Positions 1 through 7,830 of a stretch of DNA of 64,000 nt are shown here, one piece after another (within the stretch, counting starts at the first letter, position 1; each line of letters begins with the position of its first letter). The stretch spans positions 2,356,001 through 2,420,000 of the forward strand of contig NZ_JMMA01000002.1 in the NCBI RefSeq assembly GCF_000686125.1. The letters are read 5' to 3'. The translations under genes were made by a program, and so were the position numbers. This stretch comes from Ruminococcus sp. NK3A76 (GTDB lineage: Bacteria; Bacillota; Clostridia; Oscillospirales; Ruminococcaceae). A model generated the notes under the pieces. That model made no database searches and had not been told where the DNA came from. It saw only the letters and a list, made by a program, of their open reading frames with translations.

Positions 1-1
1 T

Positions 2-1150
2 TTCAAAAGCTTTAATAATACAGTTCCTGAAAACGGGATAAAGCTCGCGGCGGACGTATCTTCACCTCAAAGCAAAACCGCAGATAATGGCAGTCGATCG
101 GATCATACAAGCATTGCCGGACTACCCCCGATCAGTACCAATGCGTATGTCAAGGATCCGAATAAGATAAAGCACAACAGCGAGTCTGAAAAGCGTATAG
201 CATCCGGTAACACACTTGATATTATAAAGGCACTTACAGGAAAGATTATAAAGTCTGTAAAAGATGACACAGACCGGATCAGTGATGTATATAAAGATGC
301 GGCTGAGCAAAAGCTATCCCGTTCAATAAGAAAATCTATCAGAGCTGACCATGCTCATACTCAAAAAGAGATAACGGCATATAAAAACGCTCTCAGGCAG
401 CTGGAACAGCGGCTTGCTGAATTTAAAGGACAGAATACTTTATTTTCGCAGAACTTAGATAAGCTTTGGAACAAGCTTGATGAGCTTATGGCTTCATATG
501 ACAGCAAGGTCAATGATCTGCTTGAATACTCCAAGCGCGGTTCATTAGGCAGCAGCGAAAGCGCTTACGGAATGCAGTTTGTGAGCGAATGGAAAACTGA
601 TATAGATTCGATCATCAGCCAAATAAGGCTATCAGAGATCAAAATGGCAGATATGCTGCTCAGCTGCGATTATGATACTACTCTGTTTCTTAAATCACTG
701 AAAAACACAAACGCAGCTGAGTTAAAAAAGTATCAAAAGAGCGTAATAAAGAGTTATAATTCATCAAGATTCAACGCAGCAAATATAAAGTGTATGCTTT
801 TGGTAATAGCAGGTTTGGTGTTATCCTATTATTTCTTTAAAACAATAAAAAGAGATACAAGCATAGAAGTGCATATTATAGGCAGTATATTACTGGGCAG
901 CTGGGCACTTGGTTTTTATCATATCTATCATTTTGAAAGTTTTAACGATTCAATAAATTTTTCTCTTTCCTTAATCAAAGAAACTTGGTATTTTATAATC
1001 TTTCCGCCAATTTGGGGAATAATGTGCTTTGGAGGTTTATTTTCAGTAATGTGCTGTACTATTTTCGGATTTTTCACAGGACCTATATATATGGTGCTTG
1101 ACCCTATCCGTTTTCTTTTAGGAAAGCAATGCATCAGTCAGGATCAATAA
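2..1150 (+). CDS. Membrane protein of unknown function, 5' end outside the window
   Basis: The frame that contains an ATG at 488 is open without a stop back to base 2, so the gene begins before the window and the visible part is about 382 residues. The first part is polar and charged, followed by a likely coiled-coil stretch (codons around positions 330-490, rich in K, E, Q and L). The C-terminal third holds about three hydrophobic segments (around 790-845, 870-930 and 985-1110), which suggests an anchored protein with a large soluble N-terminal part. I recognise no family. The lipoprotein gene follows 50 bp downstream on the same strand. If the skin-like element ends at 7475, this gene is element cargo. 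Confidence 0.6.
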   Translation, partial: FKSFNNTVPENGIKLAADVSSPQSKTADNGSRSDHTSIAGLPPISTNAYVKDPNKIKHNSESEKRIASGNTLDIIKALTGKIIKSVKDDTDRISDVYKDAAEQKLSRSIRKSIRADHAHTQKEITAYKNALRQLEQRLAEFKGQNTLFSQNLDKLWNKLDELMASYDSKVNDLLEYSKRGSLGSSESAYGMQFVSEWKTDIDSIISQIRLSEIKMADMLLSCDYDTTLFLKSLKNTNAAELKKYQKSVIKSYNSSRFNAANIKCMLLVIAGLVLSYYFFKTIKRDTSIEVHIIGSILLGSWALGFYHIYHFESFNDSINFSLSLIKETWYFIIFPPIWGIMCFGGLFSVMCCTIFGFFTGPIYMVLDPIRFLLGKQCISQDQ

Positions 1151-1200
1151 AAACATCGTTATTTATGCCAAAAGGCTAAAATATTAAAACAAAGGAGCAA

Positions 1201-2058
1201 ATGAAAATGAAAAACACAAAAATATTAACAGCAGCGCTTGCAACTATGCTTATTCTTGCAGGCTGCGGTGACGCCTCGGACAAGGAGAAAACGGTTGAAA
1301 GCGGATCGTCTGTGACAACTACCACTACAGCATCAGATACCGAGAGCGAGATCACAACACAAATAGTTGATGAAAGCTCTGAAGAGGATACTACAGAGGA
1401 CTTCCAAATAGACAAGATACCCGTCACCATATCCGACTCTGAATACAGCGAACACAACTATACCTGCAATCTGGGGCTCGTTTCAGAAGGCGGAGGAGGA
1501 GGAAAAGGGTTTTCTTACGATATAGAGGCTCCCGGTTTTTATGACCTGCCGCTCTCAAACCTACTGAGCGGTAATCAGTTTGAATTGACAGACGTAGAAA
1601 AGATGTCGTATAACGATCCTTCAAACGGTTTCATATTTAACGGAACTCCTTATATAACTTTTAAGTACAAAGATGAAAAGAACGGTGATCTTACGCCTGT
1701 TCCCAGTGACAAAGCTACAGCGGTCTATGTTGAAACTGCTGTTAATGAAGAGGGAGAGGAGATCGTTACAGGCTATGCTTACAGCATTGAGCACGCTTAT
1801 CTGAAACACCCCGTAAAATTTGCAAATATAAGAGACAAAGAGGGTGATCACCAAATACAGTCCTTTATTCTCGGGGACAGCAAGGAAAAAGTCGAAGAAC
1901 TCATCGGCAAGGGGTATGAATACAAAAGCTTTGCCTTTTACAGCACCGAAGAGGGTGAAGGCGAGAATATGATGAAAACATATACCATTATCGAATACGG
2001 CGAAGATGATACTGTACAAAAAGTAATTATCCTTGCAAGAGATCTTATGGATCGATAA
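1201..2058 (+). CDS. Putative lipoprotein, function unknown
   Basis: The product is a 285-residue exported protein with a charged start, a hydrophobic stretch and a lipobox LILAGC, so Cys 22 is probably lipid-modified and the protein is held on the outer face of the membrane. A Ser/Thr/Glu-rich linker (about residues 30-75, with a run of TTTTT) precedes a soluble domain that I do not recognise. A GGAG at 1194-1197 lies only 3 bp before the first ATG but 9 bp before a second in-frame ATG at 1207, which may be the true start. It follows the membrane protein gene on the same strand and could be co-transcribed with it. Confidence 0.65.
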   Translation: MKMKNTKILTAALATMLILAGCGDASDKEKTVESGSSVTTTTTASDTESEITTQIVDESSEEDTTEDFQIDKIPVTISDSEYSEHNYTCNLGLVSEGGGGGKGFSYDIEAPGFYDLPLSNLLSGNQFELTDVEKMSYNDPSNGFIFNGTPYITFKYKDEKNGDLTPVPSDKATAVYVETAVNEEGEEIVTGYAYSIEHAYLKHPVKFANIRDKEGDHQIQSFILGDSKEKVEELIGKGYEYKSFAFYSTEEGEGENMMKTYTIIEYGEDDTVQKVIILARDLMDR

Positions 2059-2080
2059 AAAAAACTCCTACCGAGACTAA

Positions 2081-2176
2081 GACTGGATCTTTGGAGGAAA
2101 TGTGGTGAGATACGAACACTACAACGGCGACGAGCTCGACGCCTATGAAACATACGAATACACCTATTGGAACTGA
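2081..2176 (+). pseudogene. Short open stretch, possible C-terminal gene remnant or very small ORF
   Basis: After a stop at 2078-2080 the frame is open to a TGA at 2174-2176. A GTG at 2105 is preceded by GGAGG at 2093-2097 and would give a 23-residue acidic, Tyr-rich peptide (MRYEHYNGDELDAYETYEY, then TYWN). The composition resembles the tail of a secreted or surface protein more than a random frame. It may be the 3' scrap of a lost paralogue of the upstream lipoprotein, or a real microprotein. The sequence alone does not decide. Confidence 0.25.
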
Positions 2177-2223
2177 TTTATGCGGCTATACACCTGATAT
2201 ACCAATCAAAAGGAGATATAACT

Positions 2224-2889
2224 ATGAACATTGAAATCAAAAACAAAATTGCAAATCTTAGTGTACCGGAGTTTGTGAACAATTACTTTTACTTTGAGAA
2301 TCTTGCTTATAACGGTATGCTGTATGCGGGAGTTCTTGAGGAATATAACGGCTATAAGAGCGTTATAAAAAACGTTGATGACGCCGTAATGTTCCTCGAA
2401 AACAACACCTGTGCGAATTTCGATATGACAACGTTTGAATTCAACGGCGGAAAGACCGTTGCCGAATACGAAAAGGCAAAGGAGATGTACTCTGCTCTTA
2501 CCTGTGACGGCAACAGGGAGTTCAGAGAATTCCTTGACGCAGAGGCTATGCCCGATATGCAGGCAATTGATATAGGCAATAATAAAACCCTCTATCTGCC
2601 CGATTATGAGAGTGACAGAGAACTAATGCAGACTATTATAGAGGGTAAGGGCAACGAGTATCTGCTTGCTGTACGCAACGAGGATACACTCCCCTCTCTT
2701 GATAATTATTCTATGAAAGATATTCTCAAAGCGGCGGATGAGGCAAAGGAGATCATGATAAACCTTGAAGTTAAAAACCCGAGAATGCCTGTTATCGGCT
2801 TTCTTCCCAATGAGAAGATATATATTATCGAACAGAAAGAGATAGATGAGGTAGAAAAGAGAATAATCAAGGAGCAGGAATCCATATAA
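2224..2889 (+). CDS. Cytosolic protein of unknown function
   Basis: I place the start at ATG 2224 because AAAGGAGATATAACT lies just before it; an upstream in-frame ATG at 2167 has no ribosome site. The 221-residue product has no signal peptide or membrane segment, and is acidic with a charged helical tail (residues about 190-221, rich in E, K and I). I recognise no domain. It lies between the lipoprotein and another unknown cytosolic gene on the same strand. Such strings of small unrelated soluble proteins often occur as cargo or immunity genes, but nothing here proves that role. Confidence 0.55.
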   Translation: MNIEIKNKIANLSVPEFVNNYFYFENLAYNGMLYAGVLEEYNGYKSVIKNVDDAVMFLENNTCANFDMTTFEFNGGKTVAEYEKAKEMYSALTCDGNREFREFLDAEAMPDMQAIDIGNNKTLYLPDYESDRELMQTIIEGKGNEYLLAVRNEDTLPSLDNYSMKDILKAADEAKEIMINLEVKNPRMPVIGFLPNEKIYIIEQKEIDEVEKRIIKEQESI

Positions 2890-2967
2890 GAAAAGGATCA
2901 CCGATAAAAGCTAAGAAATAGAGTAAAGGTTATAAAAGCGATCAAATAACCGAAAGGCAGTGATAAT

Positions 2968-3861
2968 ATGAGTTTATTCAGAAGAAAGCCCAAAGAGACA
3001 AAACCGACGTATGATGAACTCATCAAGACTTCGATTATGCCACCCTATGAATATGTTCCGGAAGACCATCTGTGGGCATTTCTTGAAACATATAATATTG
3101 AACTGACCAGAGTAAAGAACGGTGAATACACCGTTACTCTTGCTGACGGTCAGTCTGTTGAGGTATCTAATACAACTGAAATGGTACAGGCTATGAAACC
3201 TGTTATTGATGAAAAAGTGTTGAAAATGATAAATATGTACTCAAACAAAGATGTCACATTGGAAAAGTGTCTTATAGACAGAATGGCTCTTTACGGCAGA
3301 AGTGCATTGTTCCATAGTGAGGAAGACGCTAAGTTATATGATGCTATATATGACAAAGGCTTACATTTCTACGAGTTTGCAGACCTGTTCGTAAACAAAG
3401 CAAATGGCATCAATCTTGATGAATTCTATCAGAGCAAATACGAAGTTCCTTCTTTGTTTGAGGAACTAAATGTTCTTGAAAACGATGAGGTCTTCTGCCT
3501 GTACAATTTCAACAGCAATCCCGATGAGATGGTCGAGTTCTACGCTCATAAGGGCGAGGACTTAGAGGGTAAGCCAGTTACCGAGTATTCACTCTCCCTT
3601 AATCATACATATCACAGATTTCCAGAGGATAAGTGGAGATTTTGTATGGTGGGGAGTATCGACGGTGTAAGCATTGAGAATGTTGAAGCCGAACTGGAAC
3701 ACTTAAAGGACGACCAGACGTTTGTGAAAAACCCTTATTACAAAGTGGATTTCAACGGCAGGTATCCTATTTCGGAACTCAAGGAATGGATAAAGACCTG
3801 CAACTATGAGAAGGCTATGAAAGAAACAGCCAAAAAGATGATAAAGGGATTTGGCAAATAA
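2968..3861 (+). CDS. Cytosolic protein of unknown function
   Basis: The product is a 297-residue soluble protein starting MSLFRRKPKETK, with a basic N-terminus and then a mixed alpha/beta composition. The ribosome site is GAAAGGCAG about 10 bp before the ATG. There is no signal peptide or transmembrane stretch. The family is not recognised. The gene is the last of the rightward accessory genes before a convergent minus-strand group beginning at 4459. Base composition is lower in G+C than that of the arginine or ATP synthase genes, which fits an acquired segment. Confidence 0.55.
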   Translation: MSLFRRKPKETKPTYDELIKTSIMPPYEYVPEDHLWAFLETYNIELTRVKNGEYTVTLADGQSVEVSNTTEMVQAMKPVIDEKVLKMINMYSNKDVTLEKCLIDRMALYGRSALFHSEEDAKLYDAIYDKGLHFYEFADLFVNKANGINLDEFYQSKYEVPSLFEELNVLENDEVFCLYNFNSNPDEMVEFYAHKGEDLEGKPVTEYSLSLNHTYHRFPEDKWRFCMVGSIDGVSIENVEAELEHLKDDQTFVKNPYYKVDFNGRYPISELKEWIKTCNYEKAMKETAKKMIKGFGK

Positions 3862-4004
3862 AAAGTCCTTGCAGTGGGGGGAGTTTCAGAATATTCGCCG
3901 TTGTCACCAAGCTTATACAGAACCGTTCTTTCCTTTGCAACCGGAAGTGTAGAAAGAAGGTTTTTTGGATTTCCGTCATATTTAAGGTTGCTTTTTGTAT
4001 GCAT
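3858..4004 (-). pseudogene. Possible truncated gene after the GNAT acetyltransferase
   Basis: Its ATG (4002-4004) overlaps the TAA stop of the acetyltransferase gene in the form TAATG, a common arrangement for coupled genes. The first 45 or so residues (containing KYDGNPKNLLSTLPVAKERT) read like real protein. The frame then runs into the tail of the convergent gene that ends at 3861, so the 3' part appears lost. I do not recognise the family. Confidence 0.25.
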
Positions 4005-4459
4005 TATCCAAATGTCTTTCTCTTTGAATAATATACAAAACCCCTGTCCCGTTTTATTTCCGTATATCCCAGTTTTGTATAAAAGGAATTTGTTCTTATA
4101 TTCCAGTCGGGTGTGTCCAGGGTGATCTCTTTTAACCCGGTAAACATTGATTCTATTTGCTGCATCAAAAAAGATCCGTAACCCTTACGGAAATGCTCCG
4201 GCGCAACAAAGATCCTGCCGATGTTCAGTACGTTTCCCTGCAAAAACAGGATCGCTCCGCCGACGATCAGTCCTTCTTCTGTCAGTTTATACAGATGTCC
4301 TTGTCTTGCCATCTGCGTATGAAATGAGACCGACATATACCCGGGCGGACCTTCTGCCGTCGCTCCGCCTACGAAAACATCACTGTCAAATGCACGCTTG
4401 GAAATACCGGTCAGTGTCAATGCATCTGATGTATCTGCTTTTAATAACTGCAAACTCAT
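4004..4459 (-). CDS. GNAT-family N-acetyltransferase
   Basis: The product (about 151 residues) should transfer an acetyl group from acetyl-CoA to an amine; the substrate is unknown. The acetyl-CoA loop is seen as the motif VAPEHFRKGYGSFLMQ (R-K-G-Y-G fits the Q/R-x-x-G-x-G/A signature), and the C-terminal DTPDWNIRTNSFYTKLGY is typical of the family's last strand and helix. I take ATG 4459 as the start because GAGGTG lies 6 bp upstream; a GTG at 4468 is less likely. The gene lies just downstream of the broken hydrolase and its TetR regulator, all on the minus strand, so it may once have been in that operon. Confidence 0.8.
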   Translation of the reverse strand: MSLQLLKADTSDALTLTGISKRAFDSDVFVGGATAEGPPGYMSVSFHTQMARQGHLYKLTEEGLIVGGAILFLQGNVLNIGRIFVAPEHFRKGYGSFLMQQIESMFTGLKEITLDTPDWNIRTNSFYTKLGYTEIKRDRGFVYYSKRKTFG

Positions 4460-4473
4460 AAACCGCACCTCAC

Positions 4474-4938
4474 TTATACACTATATAATCTGTATTCCAT
4501 CTGGACGTCAAACGGTTCCTCTGCCGCCAGTTCCTCATTGATCTCCTCCGCAGGCGTACAGCCAAGTGTCCGGTATGCCGGATGATCTGCATATTCTCTT
4601 CCAAAGCCCAGTCGATAGCCTGATTGATTCGATCAATGATCTTTCTGTAATTCTTAGGCAACACCGCACGACCCCTGTGCATCAGTATGCGCAACCTCAA
4701 CTGGCGTTGAGGCACAGATTTTCGTCAGATTGCCTGAATTCGACGCAGGCTTGCAAGCGAAGTTCACTTCGCTTTACGCAACGTCAAGGAGAATTTGGGT
4801 AATATGACTGATAAGCAGGTCGTCAAGCAGGCTTGACACGGCAGATGATGTGCAGAGGCGTTAGCCGCGGGTCGTGCGGTGTTGCCCTTAGTTATGTCAT
4901 TTTGAATGTCAATGACGACGAGTGCTTTATTATTCATT
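4474..4938 (-). pseudogene. Isochorismatase-like cysteine hydrolase, interrupted by a MITE
   Basis: The gene starts at ATG 4938, overlapping the stop of the tetR gene (AATGAATAA). The N-terminus MNNKALVVIDIQNDITK is the first strand and catalytic Asp of the isochorismatase/nicotinamidase family. The frame is then cut by the 230-bp element at 4657-4886. Removing the element and one CTTA copy restores the frame as NDITKNYRKIIDRINQAIDW, as expected for the family. The coding part ends early: after about 40 residues no hydrolase sequence remains, and a second frame ending at 4474 (with TPAEEINEELAAEEPFDVQM) looks like the tail of another lost gene. The enzyme must be non-functional. Confidence 0.75.
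4657..4886. mobile_element. MITE-like element, copy 1 (230 bp), inserted in a gene
   Basis: Perfect terminal inverted repeats GGCAACACCGCACGACCC / GGGTCGTGCGGTGTTGCC are flanked by direct CTTA copies (4653-4656 and 4887-4890). The interior has sub-terminal inverted repeats around CGTCAGATT and AATATGAC as in copies 2-4. It has no coding capacity. It breaks the cysteine hydrolase gene, so it moved as a unit. Confidence 0.85.
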
Positions 4939-5532
4939 TCTATCACTCCCATAAGTTTTGATAAAATGCCGGCTGAACTCTTTGATTTGTGAAATAGCCT
5001 CAGCCGTTTTTTCAGGTTCACGGTCACATAAATGAATCAGATCAGAGATCGGCGCAGTATAGGCAAACGCAAGCATTTTTGGGTCATCGTTCCTCAGCAA
5101 GCCTTTGTTCATCATGCCGTCAAAAATATATGTGAACATCTCTGTCAACCCCGTCAGAAAGTGCTTTGTTGCAAGCTGTCTTGCACGTTCATCACGGTAC
5201 TGCTCAATAGACAGCAGCTTTCTTGTCATCACAACACGCTCATCATGCACGGTAAAATCCACCATTCGCATAGTCATCTCCACCAGCCCGTCAAGCGAAT
5301 CCGGCACGGGCGGCAGATTTTCCGCCGAGCCGAAACATCGGTTGTAATAAGCGATCATCTCGTCCAGCAGAGTATTCCAGATATCCTCCTTGCTCTTAAA
5401 ATGCTTGTACATCGACGATTTCACAAGCCCCAGCGAGGCAGTCAGCTCACGGATATTCGTACCGTCATATCCCTTCTGCGAAAACTGTCTGAGAGCTTCA
5501 TCAAGTATTCTTTCCTTTGTATCCTTTGCCAT
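4930..5532 (-). CDS. TetR/AcrR-family transcriptional regulator
   Basis: The 200-residue protein is a DNA-binding repressor of the TetR family. The N-terminal helix-turn-helix is clear (residues about 8-55, with ALRQFSQKGYDGTNIRELTA and then LVKSSMYKHFKSKED). The C-terminal ligand and dimer domain is divergent, as usual, so the ligand is unknown. Its stop overlaps the start of the broken hydrolase gene, which was probably its co-transcribed partner. The promoter at 5581-5609 is consensus and carries GTGAC/GTCAC repeats that could be its own operator, so autoregulation is likely. With the partner gene destroyed, it may now control only itself or distant targets. Confidence 0.9.
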   Translation of the reverse strand: MAKDTKERILDEALRQFSQKGYDGTNIRELTASLGLVKSSMYKHFKSKEDIWNTLLDEMIAYYNRCFGSAENLPPVPDSLDGLVEMTMRMVDFTVHDERVVMTRKLLSIEQYRDERARQLATKHFLTGLTEMFTYIFDGMMNKGLLRNDDPKMLAFAYTAPISDLIHLCDREPEKTAEAISQIKEFSRHFIKTYGSDRNE

Positions 5533-5552
5533 AATTTCCTCCGATTATAAAG

Positions 5553-5570
5553 AGTGACCTATCGTTCACT
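5553..5570. promoter_or_regulatory. Candidate TetR operator
   Basis: AGTGA and TCACT arms (5553-5557 and 5566-5570) enclose 8 bp just downstream of the tetR promoter. A related AGTGACTGACC lies in the promoter spacer. The position fits autorepression. Confidence 0.45.
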
Positions 5571-5580
5571 TGCTATCTAT

Positions 5581-5609
5581 ATTATAGCGAAAGGTCAGTC
5601 ACTTGTCAA
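5581..5609 (-). promoter_or_regulatory. Consensus promoter of the tetR gene
   Basis: On the minus strand TTGACA (5604-5609) and TATAAT (5581-5586) are separated by exactly 17 bp, a perfect vegetative sigma factor match. It lies 49 bp before the tetR start. Confidence 0.8.
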
Positions 5610-5642
5610 GAGCTGGTTTTACTTTGCTCAAAAGCCGATACC

Positions 5643-5696
5643 ACATCTGTTTTCCGAAATCATGCTATTGCCGTTTTGGAAAACAGATGTTTTTTA
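5643..5696 (+). terminator. Long hairpin with T tract
   Basis: ACATCTGTTTTCC (5643-5655) pairs with GGAAAACAGATGT (5678-5690) and is followed by a T run to 5695. No obvious plus-strand gene ends just before it, so it may insulate the recombinase gene or end a long upstream transcript. Confidence 0.55.
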
Positions 5697-5707
5697 TCCC
5701 TCCCCTA

Positions 5708-5737
5708 TTGACACCTCCCCTCACTGTATGATATAAT
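5708..5737 (+). promoter_or_regulatory. Promoter of the serine recombinase gene
   Basis: TTGACA (5708-5713) and TATAAT (5732-5737) with an 18-bp spacer lie 52 bp before the ATG. This is a vegetative-type promoter, whereas the Bacillus skin recombinase is known to be made under sporulation control. Confidence 0.65.
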
Positions 5738-5789
5738 ATCCATAACGATATATAACAATATAGATATATTCACAGAAAGGGCTGATAAA

Positions 5790-7475
5790 ATGGCTGACAC
5801 ACGCAAATTTGCTATCTATAGCCGTAAATCAAAGTTCACCGGCAAGGGCGAGAGCATCGAGAACCAGATAGAGATGTGTACCCGTGAGCTGAAAGCGACC
5901 TACCACATCACCGATGATGATATCGTGGTGTTTGAGGACGAGGGCTATTCGGGCGGCAACACAAACCGTCCGCAGTTTCAGGAAATGATAAAGCGCTGTC
6001 ACGAGGGCGAATTCAGGCTCGTCATATGCTACAGGCTTGACAGGATAAGCCGTAACACCGCCGACTTTGTAAAGACCTACGAAGAGCTTAAAGCAAACAA
6101 CGTCAGCTTTCGCTCGGTGAGCGACAATATCGACGATACCTCGCCTATGGGCAAGGCGATGATGATGATATCGTCGGTGTTTGCACAGCTTGAACGTGAT
6201 ATTATAACCGAGCGCATAACTGACAATATGCGTGAGCTTGCAAAAACAGGCCGCTGGCTCGGCGGCAATCCGCCTACGGGTTATGAAAGTGTCGGCACAG
6301 TCGGCAGCGTGACAGTTGACGGCAAGATACACAAAGCGCAGATGCTCAGACAAAAGCCTGAGGAGATAGAGATAGTAAAGACTATTTATGACAAGTTCCT
6401 TGAGCTGCGCTCTATCACAAAGGTAGAAACTTATCTTTTAAACAGCGGTGTAAAGACCAAGACGGGCATCAACTTCTCACGCTTTGCGATAAAGACGATA
6501 CTTCAAAACCCCGTGTATCTTATAAACGACAGCGATGCATATGCATATTTCAAAGAGAACGATATGCAGGTCTACGCCGACGAGAGCGACTTTGACGGCA
6601 AAAACGGCGTGCTTGCTTACAACAAGACCTTGCAGATAACAGGCAAGTCGATAAAGCAAAAAGACAGGTCGGAATGGATAATAGCTGTCGGCAAGCACAA
6701 GAGCGTTATTCCCGGCAGCAAGTGGGCAGAGGCGCAGCACTTACTGGGACTCAACAAAAGCAAATCCTACCGCAGGCAAAGAAGCAACGAGGCGCTGCTT
6801 TCGGGGCTGCTTTTCTGCGCTGACTGCGGCAGCTATATGCGCCCCAAGCTATCGAGCCGAGTAAACAAAAGAGGCGAGCGTGTTTATGACTACCTCTGCG
6901 AGATGAAGGAAAAAAGCCACGGCAAGCAGTGCAACATGAAGCGCATAAACGGCAACGACCTTGACGAGCAGGTGATTGATGAGATAAAAAAGCTGGGCGC
7001 TGACTCCTCCGAGCTTATGAAGCTGCTGTGCTCATCGAGAAAAGACCTGACCGAGAGCTTTACAGATTTTCAGAGCGAGATAGACAAGCGCCTTGCCCTT
7101 AAAAAGAAGACCGAGGGCGAGTGTGCGAACTTAGTCAACGCCCTGACCCTTGCAGGCGAGTCGGGTGCGGCTGATGATATCATCAAAAAGCTCAACTCAC
7201 TCCACGAGCAGATAGACAGGCTCGATATGGAGATAGCTGAATACTCCCGCCTGATAGACAACGGCAAGATAACCGACGAGAGCTTTCAGAGCCTTGCCGA
7301 AATGCTCACCAGCTTTGCTGACAACATCGACGGGCTGAATGTTATGCAAAAGCGTGACCTGATCCGCTGCTTTGTAAGCCGTGTCGAATGGGACGGCGAG
7401 AACGTACACATATACATTTTAAGCAGCGACAAAGCTCCCTTGACCAAAAAGCCGCTTAGCACGGGTAGCAAATGA
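5790..7475 (+). CDS. Large serine recombinase, skin/SpoIVCA-like
   Basis: This 561-residue protein is a site-specific DNA recombinase. The N-terminal resolvase domain (about 5-150) holds the nucleophile Ser11 in FAIYSRKS and the YRLDRISRN motif at 81-89. The recombinase domain follows (about 165-300, NPPTGYE at its start), then a zinc ribbon (about 343-385: CADCG, then CEMKEKSHGKQC) and a coiled coil (about 425-500). The stop codon TGA (7473-7475) lies inside an AATGA core at the junction with the truncated sigma-K gene. By analogy with B. subtilis SpoIVCA, I infer that it excises the DNA between the two sigK halves in the mother cell. Being cargo-side and co-directional with sigK supports this. 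Confidence 0.9.
   Translation: MADTRKFAIYSRKSKFTGKGESIENQIEMCTRELKATYHITDDDIVVFEDEGYSGGNTNRPQFQEMIKRCHEGEFRLVICYRLDRISRNTADFVKTYEELKANNVSFRSVSDNIDDTSPMGKAMMMISSVFAQLERDIITERITDNMRELAKTGRWLGGNPPTGYESVGTVGSVTVDGKIHKAQMLRQKPEEIEIVKTIYDKFLELRSITKVETYLLNSGVKTKTGINFSRFAIKTILQNPVYLINDSDAYAYFKENDMQVYADESDFDGKNGVLAYNKTLQITGKSIKQKDRSEWIIAVGKHKSVIPGSKWAEAQHLLGLNKSKSYRRQRSNEALLSGLLFCADCGSYMRPKLSSRVNKRGERVYDYLCEMKEKSHGKQCNMKRINGNDLDEQVIDEIKKLGADSSELMKLLCSSRKDLTESFTDFQSEIDKRLALKKKTEGECANLVNALTLAGESGAADDIIKKLNSLHEQIDRLDMEIAEYSRLIDNGKITDESFQSLAEMLTSFADNIDGLNVMQKRDLIRCFVSRVEWDGENVHIYILSSDKAPLTKKPLSTGSK
7471..7475. other. AATGA crossover core at the sigK/element junction
   Basis: AATGA at 7471-7475 is the same five bases that form the known crossover core of the B. 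subtilis skin element, and it falls at the same codons (Asn-Glu of NEILM). It is also the stop region of the recombinase gene. The partner site is expected before the window, at the end of the 5' half of sigK. Confidence 0.7.
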
Positions 7476-7482
7476 GATACTC

Positions 7483-7830
7483 ATGCACTTTCGCTCGGGC
7501 AGGAAAAGTGCGAACGACATACACTTTTCCGAGCCGATAGACTCTGACCGTGACGAGGGCGGCCTGACGCTTATGGACATGATAGCCGACGATGAGAACA
7601 TCATCGACACCGTAGAGCTGCGGCTGTCATCGCAAAGGCTTTATGAGTGCATCGAGAGCGCACTCTCAGGCAGGGAGAGGGAAATCATCATCCTGCGATA
7701 CGGGCTTGCAGGCAAGCCGCCGCTGACCCAGCGTGAGGTCGCCAAAAAGCTCGACATCTCACGCTCCTATGTCTCACGGATAGAGAAAAAAGCCCTCGGC
7801 CTGCTGAAGGAAGCCTTTGATGAAAAATAG
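7483..7830 (+). CDS. sigK: RNA polymerase sigma-K factor, C-terminal half only
   Basis: The frame encodes region 4 of a sporulation sigma factor. The helix-turn-helix LTQREVAKKLDISRSYVSRI and the preceding GREREIIILRYGLAG are hallmark sigma-E/K sequences. The N-terminal half (regions 2 and 3, including the core-binding and -10 recognition helices) is missing. The frame is open upstream of ATG 7483 to AAT at 7471, and reads NEILMHFRSGRK, exactly the segment where sigK is split by skin in B. subtilis (spoIIIC begins there). ATG 7483 is thus probably not a used start; the full gene forms only after excision. A terminator follows at 7838. Confidence 0.85.
   Translation: MHFRSGRKSANDIHFSEPIDSDRDEGGLTLMDMIADDENIIDTVELRLSSQRLYECIESALSGREREIIILRYGLAGKPPLTQREVAKKLDISRSYVSRIEKKALGLLKEAFDEK

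Follow-up and report, generated by a model that had tools for sequence, protein, structure and literature searches.

The window analysed here, the whole 64,000-nucleotide stretch (G000:C2:2356001-2420000), lies on a 3.56-Mb contig of a genome that is 99.8% complete (G000). Toward its left end, a gene for a large serine recombinase (LSR) runs directly into the 3′ half of sigK, while the 5′ half lies far upstream on the same contig. The features of the locus are as follows.

1-7470, no strand assigned: right-hand ~7.5 kb of a 59.4-kb element between the sigK halves, both of which were located
5708-5737, plus strand: LSR promoter of sigma-A type, TTGACA-18-TATAAT with extended -10, 12 of 12 consensus positions
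5790-7475, plus strand: LSR, 561 aa, with PF00239, PF07508, and PF13408
7450-7476, plus strand: attR, consisting of the element arm AGCCGCTTAGCACGGGTAGC (7450-7469) and then the core AAATG, with AA at 7471-7472
7471-7830, plus strand: 3′ half of sigK (regions 3-4, residues 111-229 of the rebuilt protein), recognized by SigK models, Sigma70_r4, and purifying selection
G000:C2:2303744-2304076, plus strand, upstream of the window: 5′ half of sigK, sigma region 2 without region 4, same contig
G000:C2:2331250-2331423, inside the element and outside the window: small protein of 57 aa, MNIIIHLPETNEG...
attB, the rejoined site: GTGTGTGGAA-AATGAGATACTC

Positions 7471-7830 read AAT GAG ATA CTC ATG ... 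TAG (NEILMHFRSGRK...) and encode, in frame, NEILMHFRS... with region 4. The SigK models match this half from approximately residue 111 (NF004471, E 5e-38; TIGR02846, E 9e-35), and Sigma70_r4 is found within it (E 9e-15), in agreement with a preliminary description of this DNA that had placed the start of the C-terminal half of sigK at AAT-GAG. The same description had stated that the window codes for no sigma region 2. A whole-genome search of this strain with PF04542 bore this out, as none of the 36 matches falls within 2356001-2420000. The second-best match (G000:C2:2303900-2304091) has no partner region 4 and reveals the plus-strand 5′ half that the preliminary description had proposed to seek upstream. 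Its ORF reads MFEHIYRF...RFATYASRCVEN, where the sigma part ends at ...CVEN and is followed by unrelated residues. The two halves share contig and strand, with the 5′ half 59.4 kb upstream of the 3′ half (which starts at 2363471) and an interval of 59,397 bp between them. It had been argued that, given such a 5′ half, everything from the start of the window to the junction is element cargo; positions 1-7470 are indeed cargo, and the remainder of the element occupies G000:C2:2304076-2356000.

When fused at their common AA, the halves form one reading frame for a 229-aa SigK, which scores 283 bits against the SigK subfamily model NF004471 (cut-off 252) and 207 bits against SigE. The rebuilt protein falls below the cut-off of the stricter SigK equivalog TIGR02846 (274 versus 298.7 bits), as do the intact SigK proteins of two relatives, G001 and G002 (285 and 288 bits). 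A search of the G000 genome for a second or complete sigK, which the preliminary description had named as counterevidence, found none.

The LSR carries the Resolvase, Recombinase, and Zn-ribbon domains that make up the full LSR set, and its YSRKS motif and Zn-ribbon cysteines are invariant in nine relatives. The closest solved structures include the TP901-1 integrase and SprA (YokA). While the LSR shares the large serine integrase architecture of SPbeta SprA/SprB, TP901-1, and phiC31, its similarity to phage integrases is low (24-37%) and their attachment genes are different. As previously claimed, the recombinase gene ends on the junction: its TGA stop (7473-7475) overlaps AAT-GAG of sigK. 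The stop is formed by the Asn-Glu codons of sigK, and the recombinase gene thus ends in host sequence. Just upstream of the LSR gene, a TetR-type regulator gene (window 4930-5532, minus strand), absent from the sister species, has a perfect sigma-A promoter of its own (5609-5581, minus strand).

The left end of the element in G000 reads GAAAACGCT, and the left and right junctions are GTGTGTGGAAAACGCTATTC and CGGGTAGCAAATGAGATACTC, respectively. The bases common to both ends are AAA in G000 and AAATG in its relatives. The crossover core of B. subtilis skin is AATGA, and the preliminary description had expected this core here, with a 5′ half ending in AATGA. The left-end sequence rules it out, since the 5′ half has no such end, and the core of the G000 family is instead AA(ATG). 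Across the family, the right-end consensus is AGAGCCG-N5-GAGAGGATAGC-AAAT|GA, and the left-end consensus is its inverted form, AAx|GCTATCCTCTCA-N3-CGGCTCT. Across the 54 ends compared (24 left and 30 right), no bases other than the AA of the Asn codon are invariant. In six genomes, the left end has A as its third base, which the host Asn codon cannot supply, and therefore the crossover should lie at AA; we infer that AA 7471-7472 is the crossover dinucleotide. On average, the two att arms complement each other at 59% of positions versus 39% in shuffles, and 13 of 23 arm pairs performed better than at least 199 of 200 shuffles. The arm pair of G000 itself is not significantly palindromic (67 of 200 shuffles equally good). 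An exact 19-mer search of viral contigs for a free attP returned none.

Among the seven genomes of the genus set, sigK is intact in G001 and G002, with 85% identity to the rebuilt SigK, so that these two represent empty sites; no LSR of the same kind was seen in these two genomes, which are 72-76% complete. G003, G005, and G006 represent filled sites, with a sigK 5′ half cut at the same codon as in G000, and in G003 and G005 an LSR 79% identical to that of the window adjoins the 3′ half. Since the same LSR-to-3′-half junction recurs in other species, a chance junction is excluded. Most of the 248 genomes of the family set carry an intact sigK. Both halves appear as separate matches parting at or near residue 111 in at least 33 of the 248, including G000 and G005, a minimum count in which only genomes with weak best matches were re-examined, plus G000 and G005; four of the re-examined weak scorers have one half only. 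For 18 family genomes, a single contig carries both halves in the order expected, separated by ~3.4 kb at the least (G106) and 59.4 kb at the most (G000). Of the fetched loci, 24 have an LSR immediately ahead of the 3′ half, and in three it is inverted and adjoins the 5′ half; its identity to the LSR of the window is 38-79%.

A scan of 84,980 GTDB species genomes by LSR alignment gave 549 relatives, the best 80 of which were examined. At least 76 of these 80 adjoin a sigK half: 72 have the 3′ half no more than 400 bp downstream and four are inverted beside the 5′ half, the rest lying at or near contig ends. The carriers among the best 80 include Ruminococcus albus AR67, R. flavefaciens, and Acutalibacter, as well as records of Flavonifractor, Oscillibacter, Lacrimispora, and Defluviitaleaceae, and a split sigK with an LSR is found in records of Ruminococcaceae, Oscillospiraceae, Lachnospiraceae, and Defluviitaleaceae. 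Judged from these genomes, the split is not peculiar to G000 and is common in other gut Clostridia. One carrier (L163, contig NZ_PRLE01000002.1) is named Faecalibacterium prausnitzii APC923/61-1. This species is held to be non-sporing, and the name on that contig may be wrong.

When ORFs were clustered over all elements, one family besides the LSR was found nearly everywhere, a protein of 52-66 aa that is present in about 24 elements in varying position and orientation. In G000, its gene lies 27 kb from the left end of the element. The regions upstream of the small gene share a recurring arrangement, ATAcc-GGACAxGC-...-CATAcA. Among 42 non-redundant upstreams, ATA-N16/17-CATA is present in 21 (1.8 in shuffles; sd 1.3, max 6) and ATA-G[GT]ACA-[CA]ATA in 18 (0.2 in shuffles), and the former occurs in only 3 of 23 LSR upstreams. 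ATA-N16-CATA also precedes the small gene in G000 itself. The motif resembles a sigma-E promoter with a SpoIIID box. Two minimal elements of 2.7 kb (L180 and L181) carry a single ORF besides the LSR and the small protein. Sequence searches of Pfam, NCBIfam, PHROGs, and PDB gave nothing above noise for the small protein, and a literature search found no description of it. AlphaFold predicts a confident two-helix fold (pLDDT 93), for which Foldseek and VIA-align found no convincing structural match. The conservation of this protein together with the LSR and its promoter motif make it a probable recombination directionality (excision) factor. Two proteins of a left-end HTH cluster were also considered for this role and set aside, as many elements lack them and hardly any lacks the small protein. 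The element of G005 carries two copies of the small protein, 84% and 46% identical to that of G000 (L103:11287-11457 and L104:5154-5324).

Taken together, the locus very probably holds a skin-type element with its own LSR, whose excision, timed by sigma-E and SpoIIID through the small protein, rebuilds sigK. The halves, their order and orientation, the in-frame fusion, the empty and filled orthologues, the att sites, and the companion gene with its sigma-E-like promoter are read directly; from the sequence we infer excision itself, its timing in sporulation, and the directionality role of the small protein. According to this model, the 59,397 bp are mobile DNA that would have entered sigK at codon Asn-111 through the action of its own serine recombinase. 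During growth, the LSR would be made from its sigma-A promoter yet be capable only of integration or of keeping the element in place. Once the mother cell sporulates, sigma-E, together with SpoIIID, would turn on the 57-aa element protein, which would serve as directionality factor and allow attL and attR to recombine at the Asn-codon AA. The element would have to leave before spore completion; the excised circle would be lost with the dying mother cell, the rebuilt gene would yield SigK, and the forespore would retain the element. With less assurance, we lean toward a broader view, in which a mobile two-gene switch is spread across Clostridia, made of an LSR clade dedicated to this sigK codon and a family of 52-66-aa directionality factors under sigma-E/SpoIIID control; some hosts would have retained it as a timing device of a minimal 2.7-3.5 kb, whereas in others unrelated cargo would have enlarged it to as much as 59 kb.

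An ordinary integrative element that uses sigK as its att site, leaving at random or under stress in a manner untied to sporulation, would also have a vegetative LSR promoter and hop between hosts. LSRs that are 95-99% identical (in Anaeromassilibacillus, a "Faecalibacterium prausnitzii" record, Pseudoflavonifractor, and others) are found in sigK genes whose 3′ halves are 37-63% identical between those hosts, and therefore the element has been transferred recently and moves between hosts. Over 71 loci, LSR and sigK distances are weakly correlated (Mantel r 0.34, permutation maximum 0.16), so that strict co-divergence of LSR and host fails and is only partial because of recent transfers. In Ruminococcus itself, the two have diverged at a similar pace (79% identity for the LSR and 76-85% for sigK), as for long residence. 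Related LSRs also occur in viral contigs, some adjoining sigK, as would suit an ordinary element. Four IMG/VR contigs classed as viral (L206, L207, L209, and L210) have an LSR of the same type adjoining a sigK half, and L209 carries the small protein too, which suggests sigK-integrated prophages of the same lineage. However, an element untied to sporulation explains neither the sigma-E-like promoter before the companion gene in half of the upstreams tested nor the persistence of minimal 2.7-kb elements without transfer genes, and the fully constrained host sigK requires reliable rejoining in sporulation. We thus regard this alternative as improbable.

An old insertion that broke sigK in a non-sporulating lineage, with halves and LSR now decaying, appears slightly more improbable still, even though the genus Ruminococcus is mostly regarded as non-sporing and the 59-kb cargo resembles piled-up accessory DNA with an IS element. 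Neither the sigK halves nor the LSR contains internal stops. By the Nei-Gojobori method, where dS was not saturated, dN/dS is 0.02-0.06 for the 5′ half and 0.05-0.11 for the 3′ half (dS about 0.5 to 3), the same as in intact genes, and 0.12-0.20 for the LSR, the comparison against decay resting on values at dS of about 1 or more. These ratios point to strong purifying selection on both halves, which are not a relic, because a gene cut and never rejoined would not stay so constrained. In addition, G000 has intact copies of spoIIID, spoIVA, and the remaining sporulation sigma genes, and the same arrangement is retained by three species of the genus and across many genera. That the halves were parted by chromosomal rearrangement or an assembly error without any single mobile element, as the large 59-kb distance, the cargo not common to relatives, and one inside-out order elsewhere might hint, has a negligible probability given that both halves lie on one contig of a nearly complete genome and that the junction recurs with the same att sequences in independent assemblies. 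The inside-out case is G100 (L098 and L099; G100:C2:33000-50000 and 75000-90000), where the halves share a strand but the 3′ half comes first, 48 kb upstream, and the LSR lies beyond the 5′ half in inverted orientation; here recombination would restore sigK on the circle that is cut out. This order may reflect a rearrangement or an assembly fault.

In all features that sequence can test, the skin-type element of G000 resembles C. difficile skin. There, the LSR CD1231 is vegetatively expressed from a sigma-A promoter, and CD1234 (72 aa) is its directionality factor under sigma-E and SpoIIID (PMC5025042). Likewise, the LSR gene in G000 lies directly upstream of the sigK 3′ half and is sigma-A driven, and imperfect inverted repeats are found at attL and attR in both (PMC5025042). 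The small directionality gene under sigma-E/SpoIIID has its candidate counterpart here in the 52-66-aa protein, likened to the 72-aa CD1234 from its published description. The insertion point in sigK, however, is different, according to the B. subtilis comparison in PMC5025042. B. subtilis skin (spoIVCB/spoIIIC, SpoIVCA) interrupts the same Asn-Glu codons and is alike in size (48 kb, PMC3416734, versus 59.4 kb in G000), but its recombinase is mother-cell specific (PMC5025042), whereas the G000 LSR has a vegetative promoter and the switch is apparently the small protein. The gin element in gerE of Bacillus cereus ATCC10987 also interrupts a sporulation gene without evident phage genes and has an LSR with a directionality factor; it differs in its target gene, its three recombinases, and the sporulation-specific expression of its recombinase (PMC5595907). 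Our literature search found no description of skin elements in Ruminococcaceae, although PMC5595907 does place skin in Clostridia, stating in one passage, which cites other work, that skin elements occur across Bacilli and Clostridia.

Programmed DNA excision for sigma-K is known from few cultured species. Its arrangement in a sizeable minority of one gut and rumen family, including Ruminococcus, usually thought non-sporing, suggests hidden sporulation in supposed non-sporers, and with the gene in two parts it is understandable that annotation pipelines would report sigK as missing. The att site, the LSR, and the small protein, all conserved, make a compact set that lends itself to testing in a heterologous host. 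The 80 natural LSR/att pairs, together with the probable excision factor, would also be of use in genome engineering. Moreover, identical elements in very different sigK genes, together with a fully constrained host gene, bear on whether skin is a parasite or a timing device.

The cargo of the G000 element is not common to the sister species. The 15 cargo ORFs sampled include a T4SS coupling protein, an IS256/Mutator-type transposase, a Cas10-like palm domain, ABC transporters, and large surface proteins; no phage structural domains were found among them. Also within this element, five or six tandem genes (L043:5698-7728; G000:C2:2337698-2339728) encode proteins starting MTNEFNLEEYIKDLSPELQEKARQCKTKDEL...EALEGVAGG, which resemble Nif11-type leader peptides of ribosomally made natural products. 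In G061 (L078, G061:C114:4000-10500, 1331-5075), the 3.7 kb between the halves comprise pflB, pflA, and a small protein, Pfam having identified pyruvate formate-lyase and its activase and ruled out nrdDG, to which length had pointed. No recombinase is coded in this piece; G061 has a 40%-identical LSR at another locus (L286), beside purE/purC-like genes, and excision would therefore need to act in trans. Two other small elements carry what is unusual cargo for mobile DNA between their sigK halves, namely sufC and a sufBD-type gene of the SUF iron-sulphur system in G073 (L079:1534-3179) and an SNF-type symporter in G106 (L080:3446-4804).
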